From assembly GCF_001499735.1 (NCBI RefSeq), contig NZ_LN848257.1, positions 1,605,125 to 1,640,265 of the forward strand: DNA of 35,141 bases, in the 5' to 3' direction. The stretch comes from Thiocapsa sp. KS1 (GTDB lineage Bacteria > Pseudomonadota > Gammaproteobacteria > Chromatiales > Chromatiaceae). The notes beneath the pieces were generated by a model. That model saw only the letters and a program-made list of their open reading frames with translations, did not search any database and was not told the origin of the DNA. The position numbers were made by a program, and so were the translations under genes. Positions 1-18,865 of the stretch are shown one piece after another (positions within the stretch are counted from its first letter, which is position 1; each line of letters starts with the position of its first letter).

Positions 1-272
1 TGCGCGAAGAGGTCTTCGAGCAGCTCGGCATCGAGCGCCTGAACGCGACCCGCAGCGACTTGGAGCGAGCCGCACGCGAGCAACGCACGCAACAGGCCCC
101 GGCGAGCCCGCGGGTCGACCAGGCAGAGCCCATGTTTACGGGCAATCGCGCAACCCATGCAGGAGGAGGATCGGGCGGTGGTGCCGGCGCCCTCTCGCTT
201 TGGGAGGTCGCGCTGATGCTCTTCGGTGTCGCCGCGATCCTCGTGATCCGCCGCCGGCCCGCAAACGCGTAG
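1..272 (+). CDS. C-terminal end of a GlyGly-CTERM surface protein (partial)
   Basis: This frame is open from the left edge of the window, so only about the last 90 residues are visible. The tail has the three parts of a GlyGly-CTERM sorting signal: a Gly/Ser-rich stretch (GGGSGGGAGA, from base 162), a hydrophobic membrane segment of about 20 residues, and a basic end (RRRP). In known systems this signal is cut in the membrane by a rhombosortase, and the protein then goes to the cell surface, usually by type II secretion. The next gene encodes a rhombosortase-like protein, which supports the reading. The polar, charged stretch before the tail gives no clue to the catalytic domain, so the protein's own function is unknown. 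The call on the tail is good; the identity is open. Confidence 0.75.
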   Translation, partial: REEVFEQLGIERLNATRSDLERAAREQRTQQAPASPRVDQAEPMFTGNRATHAGGGSGGGAGALSLWEVALMLFGVAAILVIRRRPANA

Positions 273-276
273 GCCC

Positions 277-393
277 GTAGGTCGGATGAGCGCAGCGTAA
301 TCCGACATTGCCCCTGCCAACGTCTGGTTACGGCGCGCTTAAACCTCTGAGCAGGTTTGAAAACTCATCCCAAGCGCGCCTAACCCGACCTAC
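277..393. repeat. Two-hairpin dispersed repeat, GTAGGTCGG family, copy 1
   Basis: The element is bounded by near-inverted ends (GTAGGTCGG at the left, CCCGACCTAC at the right). It holds two stem-loops. The left is GTCGGAT paired with ATCCGAC around a loop containing AGCGCAGCG. The right is GGTTA-c-GGCGCGCTT paired with AAGCGCGCCTAACC. Related copies are at 10993-11125 and, as the left half only, at 18708-18737. It lies between the stop of the GlyGly-CTERM protein and the rhombosortase start. Architecture resembles REP/REPIN elements. Confidence 0.7.
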
Positions 394-413
394 GGGGTCT
401 CGGAGCCACCGTC

Positions 414-1415
414 ATGACGACCAAGATGCCCTGGACGCTCGCCCTCGCCCTCGCGGCGGTCGGCGTCTATCTGATCCTCGGAGCGGTTCCGGAAGGACTG
501 ATCCTCGACCGCTCGATCCCGCTCGCGGCCGAACCCTGGCGTGCCTTCTCGGCCCATCTCGCACACAGCGACCCATCTCATCTCATCCTGGATGTCGCCG
601 GCCTCCTGCTGGTCGGTTGGCTGTACGAGCCGGTGCTGCGAGACCGGATGACCGTGCTTCTGTTGCTCGGCATGCCGAGCATCGTCGGAGCGGTCATGCT
701 GCTGGAGCCCCGCGTCGCCGCCTATTGCGGTCTCTCGGGCATCGTCAATCTGATCGTCGGAGCCGGATTGGCCGCGACATGGCGAGCCGAGCCGCGGGAC
801 CCGCTCCCCATCCTCTTCGCCCTCGCCGTCGCGGCCAAGATCCTGCTGGAGTGCCTCACCGGTCAGGCCGTCTTCAGCAACACCGTCTGGGCGGCGCTGC
901 ACAGTGCCCACGCGGCCGGTTTTCTGATCGGGATCGTGTTGGAGACGGCAAGACCGGCTAAGATTGCCGGCATCGTCAATCCACAAGAGGACACCTCGAT
1001 GACCTCGAGCAGCGGTCCGCGTCACGCCAAGACCGGCAAACCCATCGACAGCGCCAAGCTCGATCGCGTGGTCGCGGACGCCCGCAAGGCCAGCGACGAG
1101 CGCGCCGCCGGCTACCGCGAGCAGGCACTGAAGCTCTACGACTGGGTCTGCGGCCGGTGTGCACGCACCTTCACCCGCGAGAACCTGCGCGAGCTGACCG
1201 TCCATCACAAGGACATGAACCACGACAACAACCCGCCCGACGGCAGCAACTGGGAGCTGCTCTGCGTCTACTGCCACGACAACGAGCACCAGAAGTACGA
1301 GGAGCACTTGGCCGCTTTGGCCGGCGGCCGGGTCGCCAAGCCGGGCATGGCGGGAAAACAGACGACACACAACCCCTTCGAAGGGCTGGCCGATCTCCTG
1401 AAGAAAGACGCCTGA
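414..1415 (+). CDS. Rhombosortase with in-frame C-terminal YajD-like HNH nuclease domain
   Basis: One uninterrupted 333-residue frame contains two unrelated proteins. Residues 1 to about 185 are a small rhomboid-type membrane protease of the rhombosortase kind: several hydrophobic segments, a CGLSG motif with the expected nucleophile Ser108, and His163/His166 in the last helix (LHSAHAAG). This family cleaves GlyGly-CTERM tails, and such a tail ends just upstream. Residues 196-333 match the YajD family of HNH proteins: C246xxC249, HHKDMNHDN (His264/265), then C284xxC287-H288 and His292, with the family's NPF ending. No stop codon separates the halves. The start at 414 has GGAG eight bases upstream. 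ATG 999 (Met196) has AAGAGGA seven bases upstream, so the nuclease could also be made alone. A true fusion, read-through after loss of a stop, and two overlapping products are all possible. Confidence 0.8.
   Translation: MTTKMPWTLALALAAVGVYLILGAVPEGLILDRSIPLAAEPWRAFSAHLAHSDPSHLILDVAGLLLVGWLYEPVLRDRMTVLLLLGMPSIVGAVMLLEPRVAAYCGLSGIVNLIVGAGLAATWRAEPRDPLPILFALAVAAKILLECLTGQAVFSNTVWAALHSAHAAGFLIGIVLETARPAKIAGIVNPQEDTSMTSSSGPRHAKTGKPIDSAKLDRVVADARKASDERAAGYREQALKLYDWVCGRCARTFTRENLRELTVHHKDMNHDNNPPDGSNWELLCVYCHDNEHQKYEEHLAALAGGRVAKPGMAGKQTTHNPFEGLADLLKKDA
985..1001 (+). promoter_or_regulatory. Internal ribosome binding site and ATG for the HNH domain
   Basis: AAGAGGA at 985-991 is followed after seven bases by ATG at 999-1001, in frame with the rhombosortase. 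Translation from here would give a free 138-residue YajD-like protein, close to the usual length of that family. This is the main sequence argument that the nuclease is, or once was, an independent gene. Confidence 0.5.
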
Positions 1416-1438
1416 CGGAACGCACCCGGACGATCCCG

Positions 1439-1808
1439 GTGCCGACCCGTCGCGACATCCTGCTGAGCCTCGGATCGCTCGCCTTCACGCAAGCCATGCC
1501 GGGCTGCGCAGCGCGGTCACCCTTATCGATCGGCAGTCATGTCCGGCCGGGCTACCCGGCCGACCGCAGCCTTTCGGATGGCGATACGGCTCGGCGTGAC
1601 CGGGCAACAGGTCCTGGACGCCTTCAGGGGGCTCACGCTGCCGGATATCGACGCCAATCGGACGCTGCCCGGAACCACCGGGAGCGTCCGACTCGCCGAC
1701 GAGCGGTTGAACCGCTTCATGTCCGAACGGGGTTTGCTCGAACGACCCGATTCGCTGGATCGTCCGGTCAGCGCGGAGTATCTGCCGCGAAGGGTGTCGG
1801 TACCTTGA
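1439..1808 (+). pseudogene. Remnant of an ABC-type substrate-binding lipoprotein, internally deleted
   Basis: From GTG 1439 the frame gives a twin-Arg/lipoprotein-like leader (PTRRDILLSLGS, then MPGCA as lipobox) and then LSIGSHVRPGY. This resembles the beginning of NitT/TauT-type substrate-binding lipoproteins, where SIGxxxWPGY is typical. The frame then becomes meaningless. In another frame, from about 1575 to the stop at 1806-1808, the sequence resembles the C-terminus of the same family (RLGVTGQQVLDAFRGL, LPDIDANR, RFMSERGLLERP, LDRP, YLPR). Roughly two hundred central residues are missing and the two ends are out of frame, so the gene is broken. In related genomes (from memory) such lipoproteins precede GGDEF/EAL genes, as here. 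Family assignment is by eye; the internal deletion is the simplest explanation. Confidence 0.6.
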
Positions 1809-1809
1809 T

Positions 1810-4800
1810 ATGCAGAATAAGGGATTCGGCCTGTTGCTCTGGCTTGTGCTGACGGCCTGCGTCACCGGCACAAACGCCTTGGCGGCGGAGAAGACACTCG
1901 CATTCGGGATCGCCGCGTACCGACCCGAAGCGGTCATGCTCCCGCAATGGCGCCCGCTCGCGGACTATCTTGAACGCACGCTGCCCGGCTACCGGATCAG
2001 TCTGAGGATCCTCGAGCCCGAGGCGCTCGAGCAGGCGGCCAAGCGCGGCGAGCTGGATCTGGTCTTGACCAATCCGGCGCACTACATCGCCATCCGCTCG
2101 AGCAATCTCCTCAGCGGCGCAATCGCCACCCTGGTACGGCGCGAGGGCGATCTCGCACTGGCCGTGTTGGGCGGGGTGATCTTTACGGCGGAGGACCGCG
2201 ACGACATCGACAGCCTGGAGGACCTGGCCGGCAAGCAGATCGCGCTGAGCGGCCGTTACAACCTCGGCGGCTATGCCGCACCCATGACCGAATTGCGAGC
2301 CAGGGGAATCGGCCCCGATCGGATCCGCATTTTGGTCTTCGGCGCGCCGCATGATCGCGCAATCGAGGCGGTCCTCTCCGGCGCGGCGGACGCCGGTTTT
2401 GTCCGCACCGGCATCATCGAGCAGATGCGGCGCGAAGGTCGACTGACCAAGCCGCTCAAGATTCTTGCTCCCCGGCATCTGCCGGGCTTTCCATTTGCGC
2501 TCTCCACGGATCTGTATCCGGAATGGCCGGTCGTCGCCCTGCCCTCCGCCGGCGAGGTCGCCAGTCGCCGCATCGCCGGCGCCCTGCTCGCGCTGGAGCC
2601 GGATGACCCGGCGGCCGGAGCAGCCGGCATCATGGGATTCACGATTCCGGCCGATTACACCACGGTGGAGGAGCTTCTGCGGACCAATCGGATGCCGCCG
2701 TTCGAGCATCAGCCGCCGATCCGCTGGCACGACATCTGGGTGCAGCATCGCTTTGCGCTGATCGCCACCCCCGCGGCCTTCGTCGCGATTCTCGGCCTCG
2801 CGCTTTGGCTGAGCTTGACCAATCGGCATCTGTCCGCAGAACGCAGTCGAGCGCTCACCCTGGGCCAGCGTCTGGAACGCGAGCACGCGCACCTGGAAAC
2901 GCTCGTGCAGACCATCCCCGATCTGGTCTGGCTGAAGGATCTCGACGGCGTCTATCTTGCTTGCAACCCCAGGTTCGAGGCGTTTTTCGGTGCACCGAGG
3001 CAGCAGATCATCGGCAAGACCGACTACGACTTTACTACGCGAGACACGGCGGACCTCTTCCGCGAATTCGATCGCCGGGCCATGTGTGCGGAAGGCCCCT
3101 GCACAAACGAGGAGTGGGTGACCTTCGCACGGGACGGCCATCGCGAGCTGCTGGAGACCACCAAGGTCGCCATGCGGGATACCAACGGCGCGCTCATCGG
3201 GGTGCTCGGGATCGGACACGACATCACCGAGCGCAAGCGCATCGAGCACGACCTGCGCAGCATCACCGAATATGCCGCCGAAGGGATCTGGACCAGCGGA
3301 CTCGACCATCGTTATCTCTACGCCAACCCGGCCGCGCTGGCGATGACCGGACACACCCTCGAAGAGCTGCAAGGGATGAGGATCGAGGATCTGGCGGCAC
3401 CCGAGGAGCATGAGCGCCTCGCCGAGCACTTCGCGCACATGCGCACCGTGGGTGCTGTCGATCACCGGCTCTGGAAGCTGAAACGCAAGGACGGCAGCCT
3501 TCTGGAGGTCGAACTGACCGCTCAGCGACTCCCCGATGACCGCCTGCTGGCAGTCGGGCGGGACCTGACCCATCTGAGGAACCACGAAGAGGCCCTCTTC
3601 CGCGCCATCTACTACGACGCCCTGACCGGACTGCCGAACCGCACGCTGATGCTCGAACGTCTGGAGCAGTCGCGCTTGCGCGCATGCCGCGATCAGAGCC
3701 ATCTCGCTTTGGGTTTCTTGGATCTGGATCGCTTCGGCGTCGTCAACGAGACCTATGGACACGCCCGCGGCGATCGGATCCTGGCCGAGATCGCATTGCG
3801 TCTGCGGGCGACGCTGCGTCCGGGCGATACCCTGGCGCGCATCGGCGGCGACGAGTTCGCACTCCTGATGGACGCACTCCCGCACCCCGAGGCCGCATCT
3901 GCGGTCATCGAGCGCCTGCTGACCGAGCTTGCGACACCGCTCGCCTTCCACGGCGACACGGTCCGCGTCTCCGCCAGCCTGGGCTTGACGATCTTCCCCG
4001 AAGACGACGGCGATTCGGAGACCCTGCTGCGGCATGCCACACAGGCGATGTATCGCGCCAAAGAGCTCGGCCGTAATCGGATCCATCTCTTCGATGTCGC
4101 GCAAGACCAAGCCTTGCTCGCCCGCATCGACGATCTGAAACGTTTTCGCGAAGCGATCGAGCACCATGAGCTGGCGCTCCATTACCAACCCAAGGTGGAT
4201 CTCGACACCGGCGATATCGTCGGTGCCGAGGCCCTGATCCGCTGGCAGCACCCCGAGCGCGGATTGCTTCTCCCTGCGGATTTTCTCACGCTCGTGGACG
4301 GATCCGAGCTCGAGATCCGCCTCAGCGAGTGGGTCATTACGCACGCACTTGCTCAAATGACGGCTTGGCATGCATCGGGGCTGAGGCTCTCGGTCAGCAT
4401 CAATCTGCCCGCTGCCCATCTGCTGCTGCCGGGTTTTGCCGACTGGCTCGCCGCCGCGCTGTCTCGGCATCCGGATCTGACCGCGCATTCTCTGGAGCTC
4501 GAGATCCTCGAATCCGCCGCCATCGCGGATATGGACATCGCCGTCGAGACGCTCACGGCAATCAAGATCCTGGGTGTCGACGTCTCGCTCGACGACTTCG
4601 GGACCGGTTTTTCATCGCTCGCCTATTTCCGCAGGCTCCCGGTCGATACGCTGAAGATCGATCGCAGCTTCGTGAGCGACATGCTGGTCGATCCGAACGC
4701 CTTGGGCGTCGTCGAGCATGTCATCAGACTCGCAAAGATCTTCGACCGCAACGTCATCGCCGAGGGGCTTGAAACCATCGACGACTGGATTGCGCTGCGG

Positions 4801-5340
4801 CTGCTCGGGTGCGACCAGGCGCAGGGCTTCGGCATCGCGCATCCGATGCCGGCCGAAGCCGTTCCCGGATGGCTCGACGCTTGGCGCTCGGCCGAGATCC
4901 GGCGCGATATGCCGGCTCGGAACTGTACCGGCAGCGATGCCACTCTCGTCGTCGCCGGCATCATTCACCGCCGCTGGTTTCGCGCCTTGACCGCTGCGGT
5001 GGAGACCGGAAACGCCTCGGACGTCGGCATCTTCGATGCCGGGCAGTGCCCGTTCGGCAAATGGTATCGAGGGATCGGTGAACGTCGCTACGCCGGCTTG
5101 CCGGATTTCGAGGTGATCGACGATATCCATCGACGCGCGCACCGGATCGCCGAGGAGATCGTCGAACGCCTCGTGTGCGGCGACGCGTGCGCGGCTCGCG
5201 CGCAATTGCCGCAGCTGCAGACCACCTGCGATGCGCTGCTGGAGCACATCGATCGTCTGGCTGCGTACACGCAGGAAAGGGCCGCTCGACCTGCGCACCC
5301 GCCACCGCCTGCGGAACCGGCAAAAGCCGATTACACTTGA
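1810..5340 (+). CDS. Periplasmic-sensing PhnD-PAS-PAS-GGDEF-EAL-CZB c-di-GMP protein
   Basis: A 1176-residue inner-membrane signalling protein predicted to make and/or break cyclic di-GMP. In order: signal peptide (about 1-26, ending ALAAE); a PhnD-like periplasmic ligand-binding domain (about 28-285); one membrane segment (about 315-337); two PAS domains (about 355-480 and 485-590, the first ending in GHDITERK); GGDEF with intact GGDEF at 679-683; EAL with the signature at 807-809, DDFGTG, KIDRSF and AEGLE; and a C-terminal CZB zinc-binding domain (about 1045-1160) with His1053, Cys1080 in CPFGKWY and the two histidines of DIHRRAH. All motifs needed for both activities look present, but which dominates cannot be told. 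The start follows the broken substrate-binding gene by one base, so the two were probably co-transcribed. CZB at the C-terminus of an EAL protein is uncommon and suggests control by zinc or redox state. Confidence 0.9.
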   Translation: MQNKGFGLLLWLVLTACVTGTNALAAEKTLAFGIAAYRPEAVMLPQWRPLADYLERTLPGYRISLRILEPEALEQAAKRGELDLVLTNPAHYIAIRSSNLLSGAIATLVRREGDLALAVLGGVIFTAEDRDDIDSLEDLAGKQIALSGRYNLGGYAAPMTELRARGIGPDRIRILVFGAPHDRAIEAVLSGAADAGFVRTGIIEQMRREGRLTKPLKILAPRHLPGFPFALSTDLYPEWPVVALPSAGEVASRRIAGALLALEPDDPAAGAAGIMGFTIPADYTTVEELLRTNRMPPFEHQPPIRWHDIWVQHRFALIATPAAFVAILGLALWLSLTNRHLSAERSRALTLGQRLEREHAHLETLVQTIPDLVWLKDLDGVYLACNPRFEAFFGAPRQQIIGKTDYDFTTRDTADLFREFDRRAMCAEGPCTNEEWVTFARDGHRELLETTKVAMRDTNGALIGVLGIGHDITERKRIEHDLRSITEYAAEGIWTSGLDHRYLYANPAALAMTGHTLEELQGMRIEDLAAPEEHERLAEHFAHMRTVGAVDHRLWKLKRKDGSLLEVELTAQRLPDDRLLAVGRDLTHLRNHEEALFRAIYYDALTGLPNRTLMLERLEQSRLRACRDQSHLALGFLDLDRFGVVNETYGHARGDRILAEIALRLRATLRPGDTLARIGGDEFALLMDALPHPEAASAVIERLLTELATPLAFHGDTVRVSASLGLTIFPEDDGDSETLLRHATQAMYRAKELGRNRIHLFDVAQDQALLARIDDLKRFREAIEHHELALHYQPKVDLDTGDIVGAEALIRWQHPERGLLLPADFLTLVDGSELEIRLSEWVITHALAQMTAWHASGLRLSVSINLPAAHLLLPGFADWLAAALSRHPDLTAHSLELEILESAAIADMDIAVETLTAIKILGVDVSLDDFGTGFSSLAYFRRLPVDTLKIDRSFVSDMLVDPNALGVVEHVIRLAKIFDRNVIAEGLETIDDWIALRLLGCDQAQGFGIAHPMPAEAVPGWLDAWRSAEIRRDMPARNCTGSDATLVVAGIIHRRWFRALTAAVETGNASDVGIFDAGQCPFGKWYRGIGERRYAGLPDFEVIDDIHRRAHRIAEEIVERLVCGDACAARAQLPQLQTTCDALLEHIDRLAAYTQERAARPAHPPPPAEPAKADYT

Positions 5341-18707: not shown

Positions 18708-18737
18708 GTAGGTCGGATCAGCGCAGCGTAATCCGAC
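18708..18737. repeat. Single-hairpin (half) copy of the GTAGGTCGG repeat
   Basis: Only the left half of the element is present: GTAGGTCGGAT, the GCGCAGCG loop, then ATCCGAC. It sits just after bioF in the 175-base gap before bioH. The rest of the gap shows nothing recognisable. Confidence 0.7.
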
Positions 18738-18865
18738 GCCTCAACATCTCGTTGCCCCGCCGGCATCGGGCTGCGGCCCCCGTCGGCGCATTGCGTTAAG
18801 ATCAGACGCCGCACCACGCGGGCCCAATCCAACCCGCGTGTCAACCACCGATAACCCGACACAGA

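Follow-up and report, generated by a model that had tools for sequence, protein, structure and literature searches.

One uninterrupted reading frame in Thiocapsa sp. KS1 encodes a rhombosortase followed by a complete YajD-like HNH nuclease, and this fused frame is shared by three genomes of one genus. We regard it as probably a lineage-specific run-on fusion, an accident of gene placement of which the joint frame is a tolerated by-product. A functional link between the protease and the nuclease is not supported by the analysis but is conceivable. The sequence analysed, here called the window, is a stretch of 35,141 nucleotides of contig NZ_LN848257.1 from the genome assembly designated G000, which holds one copy of the joint frame. 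The features at the left end of the window are as follows.

3..272, + strand: C-terminal end of a VIT/VWA protein, the presumed rhombosortase substrate; the gene begins to the left of the window
277..307, + strand: repeat copy lying between the VWA gene and the rhombosortase gene, its core an inverted repeat
414..1415, + strand: joint reading frame of 333 codons plus stop, open throughout
414..947, + strand: rhombosortase part, codons 1-178, with the Ser-108 codon at 735-737 and the His-166 codon at 909-911
948..998, + strand: linker between rhombosortase and yajD, codons 179-195
985..991, + strand: Shine-Dalgarno-like site of yajD, AAGAGGA, 5′ of the internal ATG at 999-1001
999..1415, + strand: yajD, HNH nuclease, with its own ATG at 999 (codon 196) and matches to NF008448 and Pfam HNH above the cut-offs

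Domains of the joint frame and the start of yajD

The joint frame had originally been predicted from the letters of the sequence, and both of its halves were confirmed by domain models. Residues 31-176 match the NCBIfam equivalog model for rhombosortase, TIGR03902, with 91.4 bits (cut-off 84), and residues 221-331 match the YajD equivalog model NF008448 with 156.6 bits (cut-off 87). The Pfam domains Rhomboid (residues 39-176, 38.4 bits, cut-off 22.6) and HNH (residues 246-294, 40.4 bits, cut-off 21.4) were also detected. The HNH domain is complete, as proposed: Cys-246, Cys-249, His-264, His-265, Asp-267, Cys-284, Cys-287, and His-288 are invariant in 16 aligned sequences, with Lys-266 the exception among the residues named. 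The complete domain with its conserved Cys and His positions is typical of the YajD family; the difference lies in the membrane protease that precedes it in frame, an arrangement seen in 3 of 210 genomes of the taxonomic family. On the protease side, Ser-108 had been proposed as a nucleophile acting with His-163 and His-166. Ser-108 and His-166 are invariant among 10 aligned rhombosortases and His-163 is variable, so that His-166 is the likely partner of the serine and the part of the proposal concerning His-163 falls away.

A sequence search of the PDB gave two weak matches to endonuclease VII, with E values of 0.047 and 0.083, both confined to the HNH part. An AlphaFold2 model of the fusion, made from 16 alignment rows, had a mean pLDDT of 41.8 and was set aside. 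A scan of window positions 1-1900 for promoters and terminators gave nothing beyond the chance level.

Beyond the motif conserved in the last helix, the free-standing rhombosortases of genomes G028, G180, and G187 extend for 26, 34, and 50 residues, respectively, to their own stops. The Thiocapsa frame runs for 22 residues (174-195) past the same motif and then reaches the start of YajD. The last 27 bases before this start are identical at 19 of 27 positions to the yajD leader of G028, a value found in 0 of 10000 shuffles. The corresponding comparison gave 14 matches with Thiocystis (101 of 10000 shuffles) and 12 with G070 (370 of 10000), and the other five of the eight leaders tested against that of Thiocapsa, including those of Thiocapsa imhoffii (G006) and G007, were not significant. 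Most of the case for leader homology therefore comes from G028, the other seven of the eight leaders being weak or not significant.

A leader could be identified in 26 of 28 loci, L031 and L040 falling outside the search pattern. Outside the genus, 9 of the 13 distinct leaders carry the motif GAGGA within 25 bases 5′ of the yajD ATG, and none of these lies behind a rhombosortase, to the extent examined; the motif is not present in the yajD leader of T. imhoffii or G007. The yajD start region is also alike in relatives without a rhombosortase. Together, the GAGGA motif and the leader matches indicate that the leader and the ribosome site were most likely those of yajD before the protease came. 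The linker most likely derives, at least in part, from the former leader of yajD, Shine-Dalgarno site included, and free YajD is probably also made from its own start at ATG 999. The AAGAGGA and ATG on which the original prediction had based an internal start are both present, and the frequency of GAGGA in leaders outside the genus makes such a start credible.

The VWA-rhombosortase module

The protein encoded immediately upstream contains VIT and VWA domains, as found by Pfam, and its tail consists of a Gly/Ser-rich stretch, a hydrophobic helix, and a basic end. The gene is whole in the relatives L050 and L051, at 722 and 712 codons, respectively, counted from stop to stop. TIGR03788, the model for a marine proteobacterial sortase target, is matched by four VWA proteins of this and related loci with 183-228 bits, against a cut-off of 551.65; the whole protein in L050/L051 scores 196 bits, far under the cut-off. 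The proteins thus resemble this family in matching its model and differ from it in their sub-threshold scores and in having a rhombosortase as neighbor. Haft and Varghese (2011, PMC3237569) already give the tails of the TIGR03788 family as GlyGly-CTERM, LPXTG, or PEP-CTERM, and VIT/VWA proteins with GlyGly-CTERM appear in Figure 3C of that paper. TIGR03501, the GlyGly-CTERM model, matched nothing in the 11 genomes of the genus at an E value of 1 and none of the four VWA proteins at an E value of 0.5; species-specific versions of this model were also used in PMC3237569.

Dedicated neighbor pairs of a rhombosortase and a GlyGly-CTERM protein were described by Haft and Varghese (PMC3237569). The rhombosortase of Thiocapsa is like those described there in that it adjoins one presumed target, of the VIT/VWA type. 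It differs in that the protease, lacking its own stop, continues into yajD, and in that the tail of the target falls below TIGR03501.

Pairs of VWA and rhombosortase genes with their own stops, and with no match to yajD along the retrieved sequence, were found in G028, G180, G187, and G293. A TetR gene accompanies the pair in G028 and G187, and in G028 yajD sits on a different contig from the pair. The rhombosortase of G293, which belongs to another family, is a free-standing protein of 212 residues with its own stop, encoded behind the VWA gene. In this genome (L173:1910-2548 and 2545-3492, minus strand) the stop of the VWA gene, whose product has a Gly-rich tail, and the start of the rhombosortase gene overlap by 4 bases.

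Between the VWA and rhombosortase genes of Thiocapsa sp. KS1 lies a repeat with the core GTAGGTCGGATNAGCGCAGCGTAATCCGAC, found at window positions 277-307 and again at 18708-18738. Its 30-base core has 34 copies in the genome at ≤2 mismatches and 0 in a reversed-pattern control, and the copies listed are all on contig C1. At 10.38 Mb, the G000 assembly (43 contigs) is roughly double the size of other genomes in the genus. C1 accounts for 5.07 Mb and carries the yajD locus, the single rpoB, and the 34 repeat copies; the remaining ∼5.3 Mb may be of another origin.

Distribution and decay of the arrangement

The fused protein is matched in 158 of the 210 family genomes, and a single match runs across both halves in three of them (G000, G002, and G005). 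All three belong to the genus of the window, one being Thiocapsa roseopersicina DSM 217, and the joint frame in the two further genomes is 92% identical to that of G000. Of these 210 genomes, 57 have a TIGR03902 match above the cut-off, the taxonomic order containing no more genomes than the family. Inspection by eye of the matches listed placed a rhombosortase and yajD together only in G000, G002, and G005. In a class sample of 369 genomes, 191 match the fused protein and G000 alone has the joint frame. More than 80 named yajD loci exist; among the 80 listed, an intact rhombosortase adjoins yajD in one, that of T. roseopersicina DSM 217 (L065), and rhombosortase debris lies beside yajD in the Thiocapsa MAG ALJrbin.11 (L067).

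No rhombosortase-YajD architecture was found in unrelated lineages among the 210 family genomes, the 369 class genomes, and the 80 listed yajD loci. An overlooked recurrent architecture, which had been one of the possibilities raised, is not supported in view of this confinement to a single genus, the only case in the class sample being the window's own genome. Searches of the open-licence literature showed no earlier description of a rhombosortase-YajD fusion. Two apparent fusions were ruled out. The match of a Thiohalomonas MAG (L117) to residues 71-332 is genuine in the HNH part alone and has stops upstream of it, and the rhombosortase match of G293, which extends to query residue 215 through a TAG, belongs to a gene with its own stop and no in-frame nuclease.

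A divergent TetR-family gene lies 5′ of the VWA gene and is preceded by DUF6487, DUF2939, and poly-A-polymerase-type genes. The order in G000 and G005 is DUF2939, DUF6487 (minus strand), TetR (minus strand), VWA, rhombosortase, yajD. G002 has the VWA, rhombosortase, and yajD genes, and TetR and DUF2939 were unmatched in the 6 kb upstream of its VWA gene, so its left flank differs. In T. imhoffii and G007, DUF2939 is followed by yajD and the module is absent; these genomes may never have had the module or may have lost every trace of it.

In five members of the genus (G001, G004, G008, G009, and G010) the protease is deleted or reduced to debris and yajD is intact. Specifically, TetR scraps and three VWA fragments remain in G001, whose rhombosortase has lost an internal segment. 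In G004 the remnants are a TetR fragment, a scrap of VWA, and the rhombosortase from residue 151 onward; G009 retains VWA fragments and the rhombosortase end; G008 TetR scraps, the repeat, and the start and end of the rhombosortase; and G010 the last ∼20 rhombosortase codons alone. YajD was not found in G003 (91% complete) with either the protein query or the family model. The VWA query matches 6 of the 11 genus genomes: the gene is whole in G002 and G005 and whole except for an assembly gap in G000, fragments remain in G001 and G009, and G008 gives a weak match at a different place. The joint decay of the VWA and rhombosortase genes, with yajD staying behind, is as expected for an enzyme and its sole substrate. 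Stop codons between the two domains in all close relatives would have spoken against the original prediction. No adjacent pair with such a stop was seen among the relatives examined, which have one gene without the other or in-frame protease debris 5′ of yajD.

Genomes with intact and decayed arrangements are interleaved in an rpoB tree. G005 pairs with G004 (support 100/100), G002 groups with G010, G001, and G008 (99/99, internal order open, the G008 sequence being 35% filled), and G000 lies outside the other seven core genomes (83/85). This interleaving suggests that the arrangement is most likely older than the core clade and was lost several times at different breakpoints; transfer between lineages is conceivable as well. 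In-frame debris is also present in G009, outside the core, and the arrangement may accordingly date back further.

On the other side of yajD, window positions 1426-1808 hold a gene-like stretch that is split over two frames (ORF 1157-1852 and ORF 1539-1808) and has, on visual inspection, the appearance of a broken gene. A Tat-like or lipoprotein-like start lies in the frame of ORF 1157-1852 and another piece in ORF 1539-1808; 1539-1805 had no match in Pfam or NCBIfam. The next gene downstream, 1810-5340, encodes 1176 residues with phosphonate-binding-type, PAS, GGDEF, EAL, and CZB domains.

Origin and meaning of the fused frame

Substitutions were compared among the three intact genomes by the Nei-Gojobori method. 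For the rhombosortase dN/dS lies at 0.22-0.27, and for yajD at 0.03-0.11, indicating that the protease is in use and that conservation is stronger in the nuclease. Across the 17 codons of the linker, G002 does not differ from G000, and 5 non-synonymous changes and 1 synonymous change separate G005 from G000; these small numbers from three intact genomes give no sign of constraint at the protein level. The frame into yajD is open in all eight genomes that have linker sequence. In simulations assuming independent lineages and a transition bias of 2, the linker stayed free of stops by chance in 50-74% of runs for three lineages and in 15-44% for eight; selection inferred from the stop-free linker was rejected on this basis as not significant. 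The two internal deletions that retain the rhombosortase start, one of 522 nt in G008 and one of 378 nt in G001, where the matches overlap by 19 nt, both keep it in frame, which would happen by chance in 1 case in 9. Taken with the eight open frames, the deletions hint, and no more, at a role of the upstream start for yajD.

Such a role is the essence of one alternative, in which the rhombosortase transcript and start were captured for expression of yajD only, giving an N-extended YajD with the protease in between or not. In G008 the Shine-Dalgarno region and ATG of the rhombosortase now stand in frame with yajD, 20-21 codons upstream of its ATG, and G001 also retains the rhombosortase start in frame, as capture would predict; yet yajD has kept its own leader and start, and a recognizable rhombosortase start is missing from G004 and G010. 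We consider capture unlikely. The two domains might instead form a selected protein, with the rhombosortase as an inner-membrane tether for YajD and a joint frame that is maintained. The mostly non-synonymous linker changes, few as they are, speak against this, as do the chance frequencies of a stop-free linker, the retention of yajD in five genomes after loss of the protease, and the lack of any case outside the genus in the family and class samples. These points have to be set against the persistence of the frame in three diverged genomes whose protease is under purifying selection, a frame open in eight of eight genomes, and internal deletions of which two of two are in frame. A selected two-domain protein is, on balance, quite improbable. 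We likewise attach little weight to a combined form, in which selection keeps the joint frame, YajD exists both free and membrane-bound, and after in-frame loss of the protease the start is captured as that of an N-extended yajD. An error of assembly or sequencing at the junction could be suspected from the run of N in the nearby VWA gene of G000, but the same open junction in two further genomes, one of them strain DSM 217, means that it is not an error of the G000 assembly, and this explanation is extremely improbable.

Among the origins first proposed (fusion, loss of a stop codon, and recurrence), a fusion through the absent protease stop fits best, and recurrence is not supported. According to the run-on fusion, the genes for a divergent TetR-type regulator, for a VIT/VWA surface protein whose tail resembles GlyGly-CTERM, and for the rhombosortase dedicated to it would have come to sit as a module directly 5′ of yajD, in an ancestor of some or all members of the genus. 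Having no stop before yajD, the protease would read through the linker into it. Initiation at ATG 414 would yield an inner-membrane rhombosortase with YajD as a C-terminal tail, and the tail would be cytoplasmic if the topology of the fusion follows that of GlpG. Initiation at ATG 999 would yield ordinary free YajD, which most likely keeps its usual work. The rhombosortase would process the neighboring VWA protein, as proposed for the known dedicated pairs.

For annotation, a Thiocapsa protein labeled rhombosortase-HNH is no evidence that protein sorting and this nuclease act together. The locus is a well-resolved case of a gene fusion arising and fading, with intact, partly deleted, and vanished states in one genus. 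Because the conserved gene has its own ribosome-binding site inside the new frame, the old product need not be lost when such a fusion forms.
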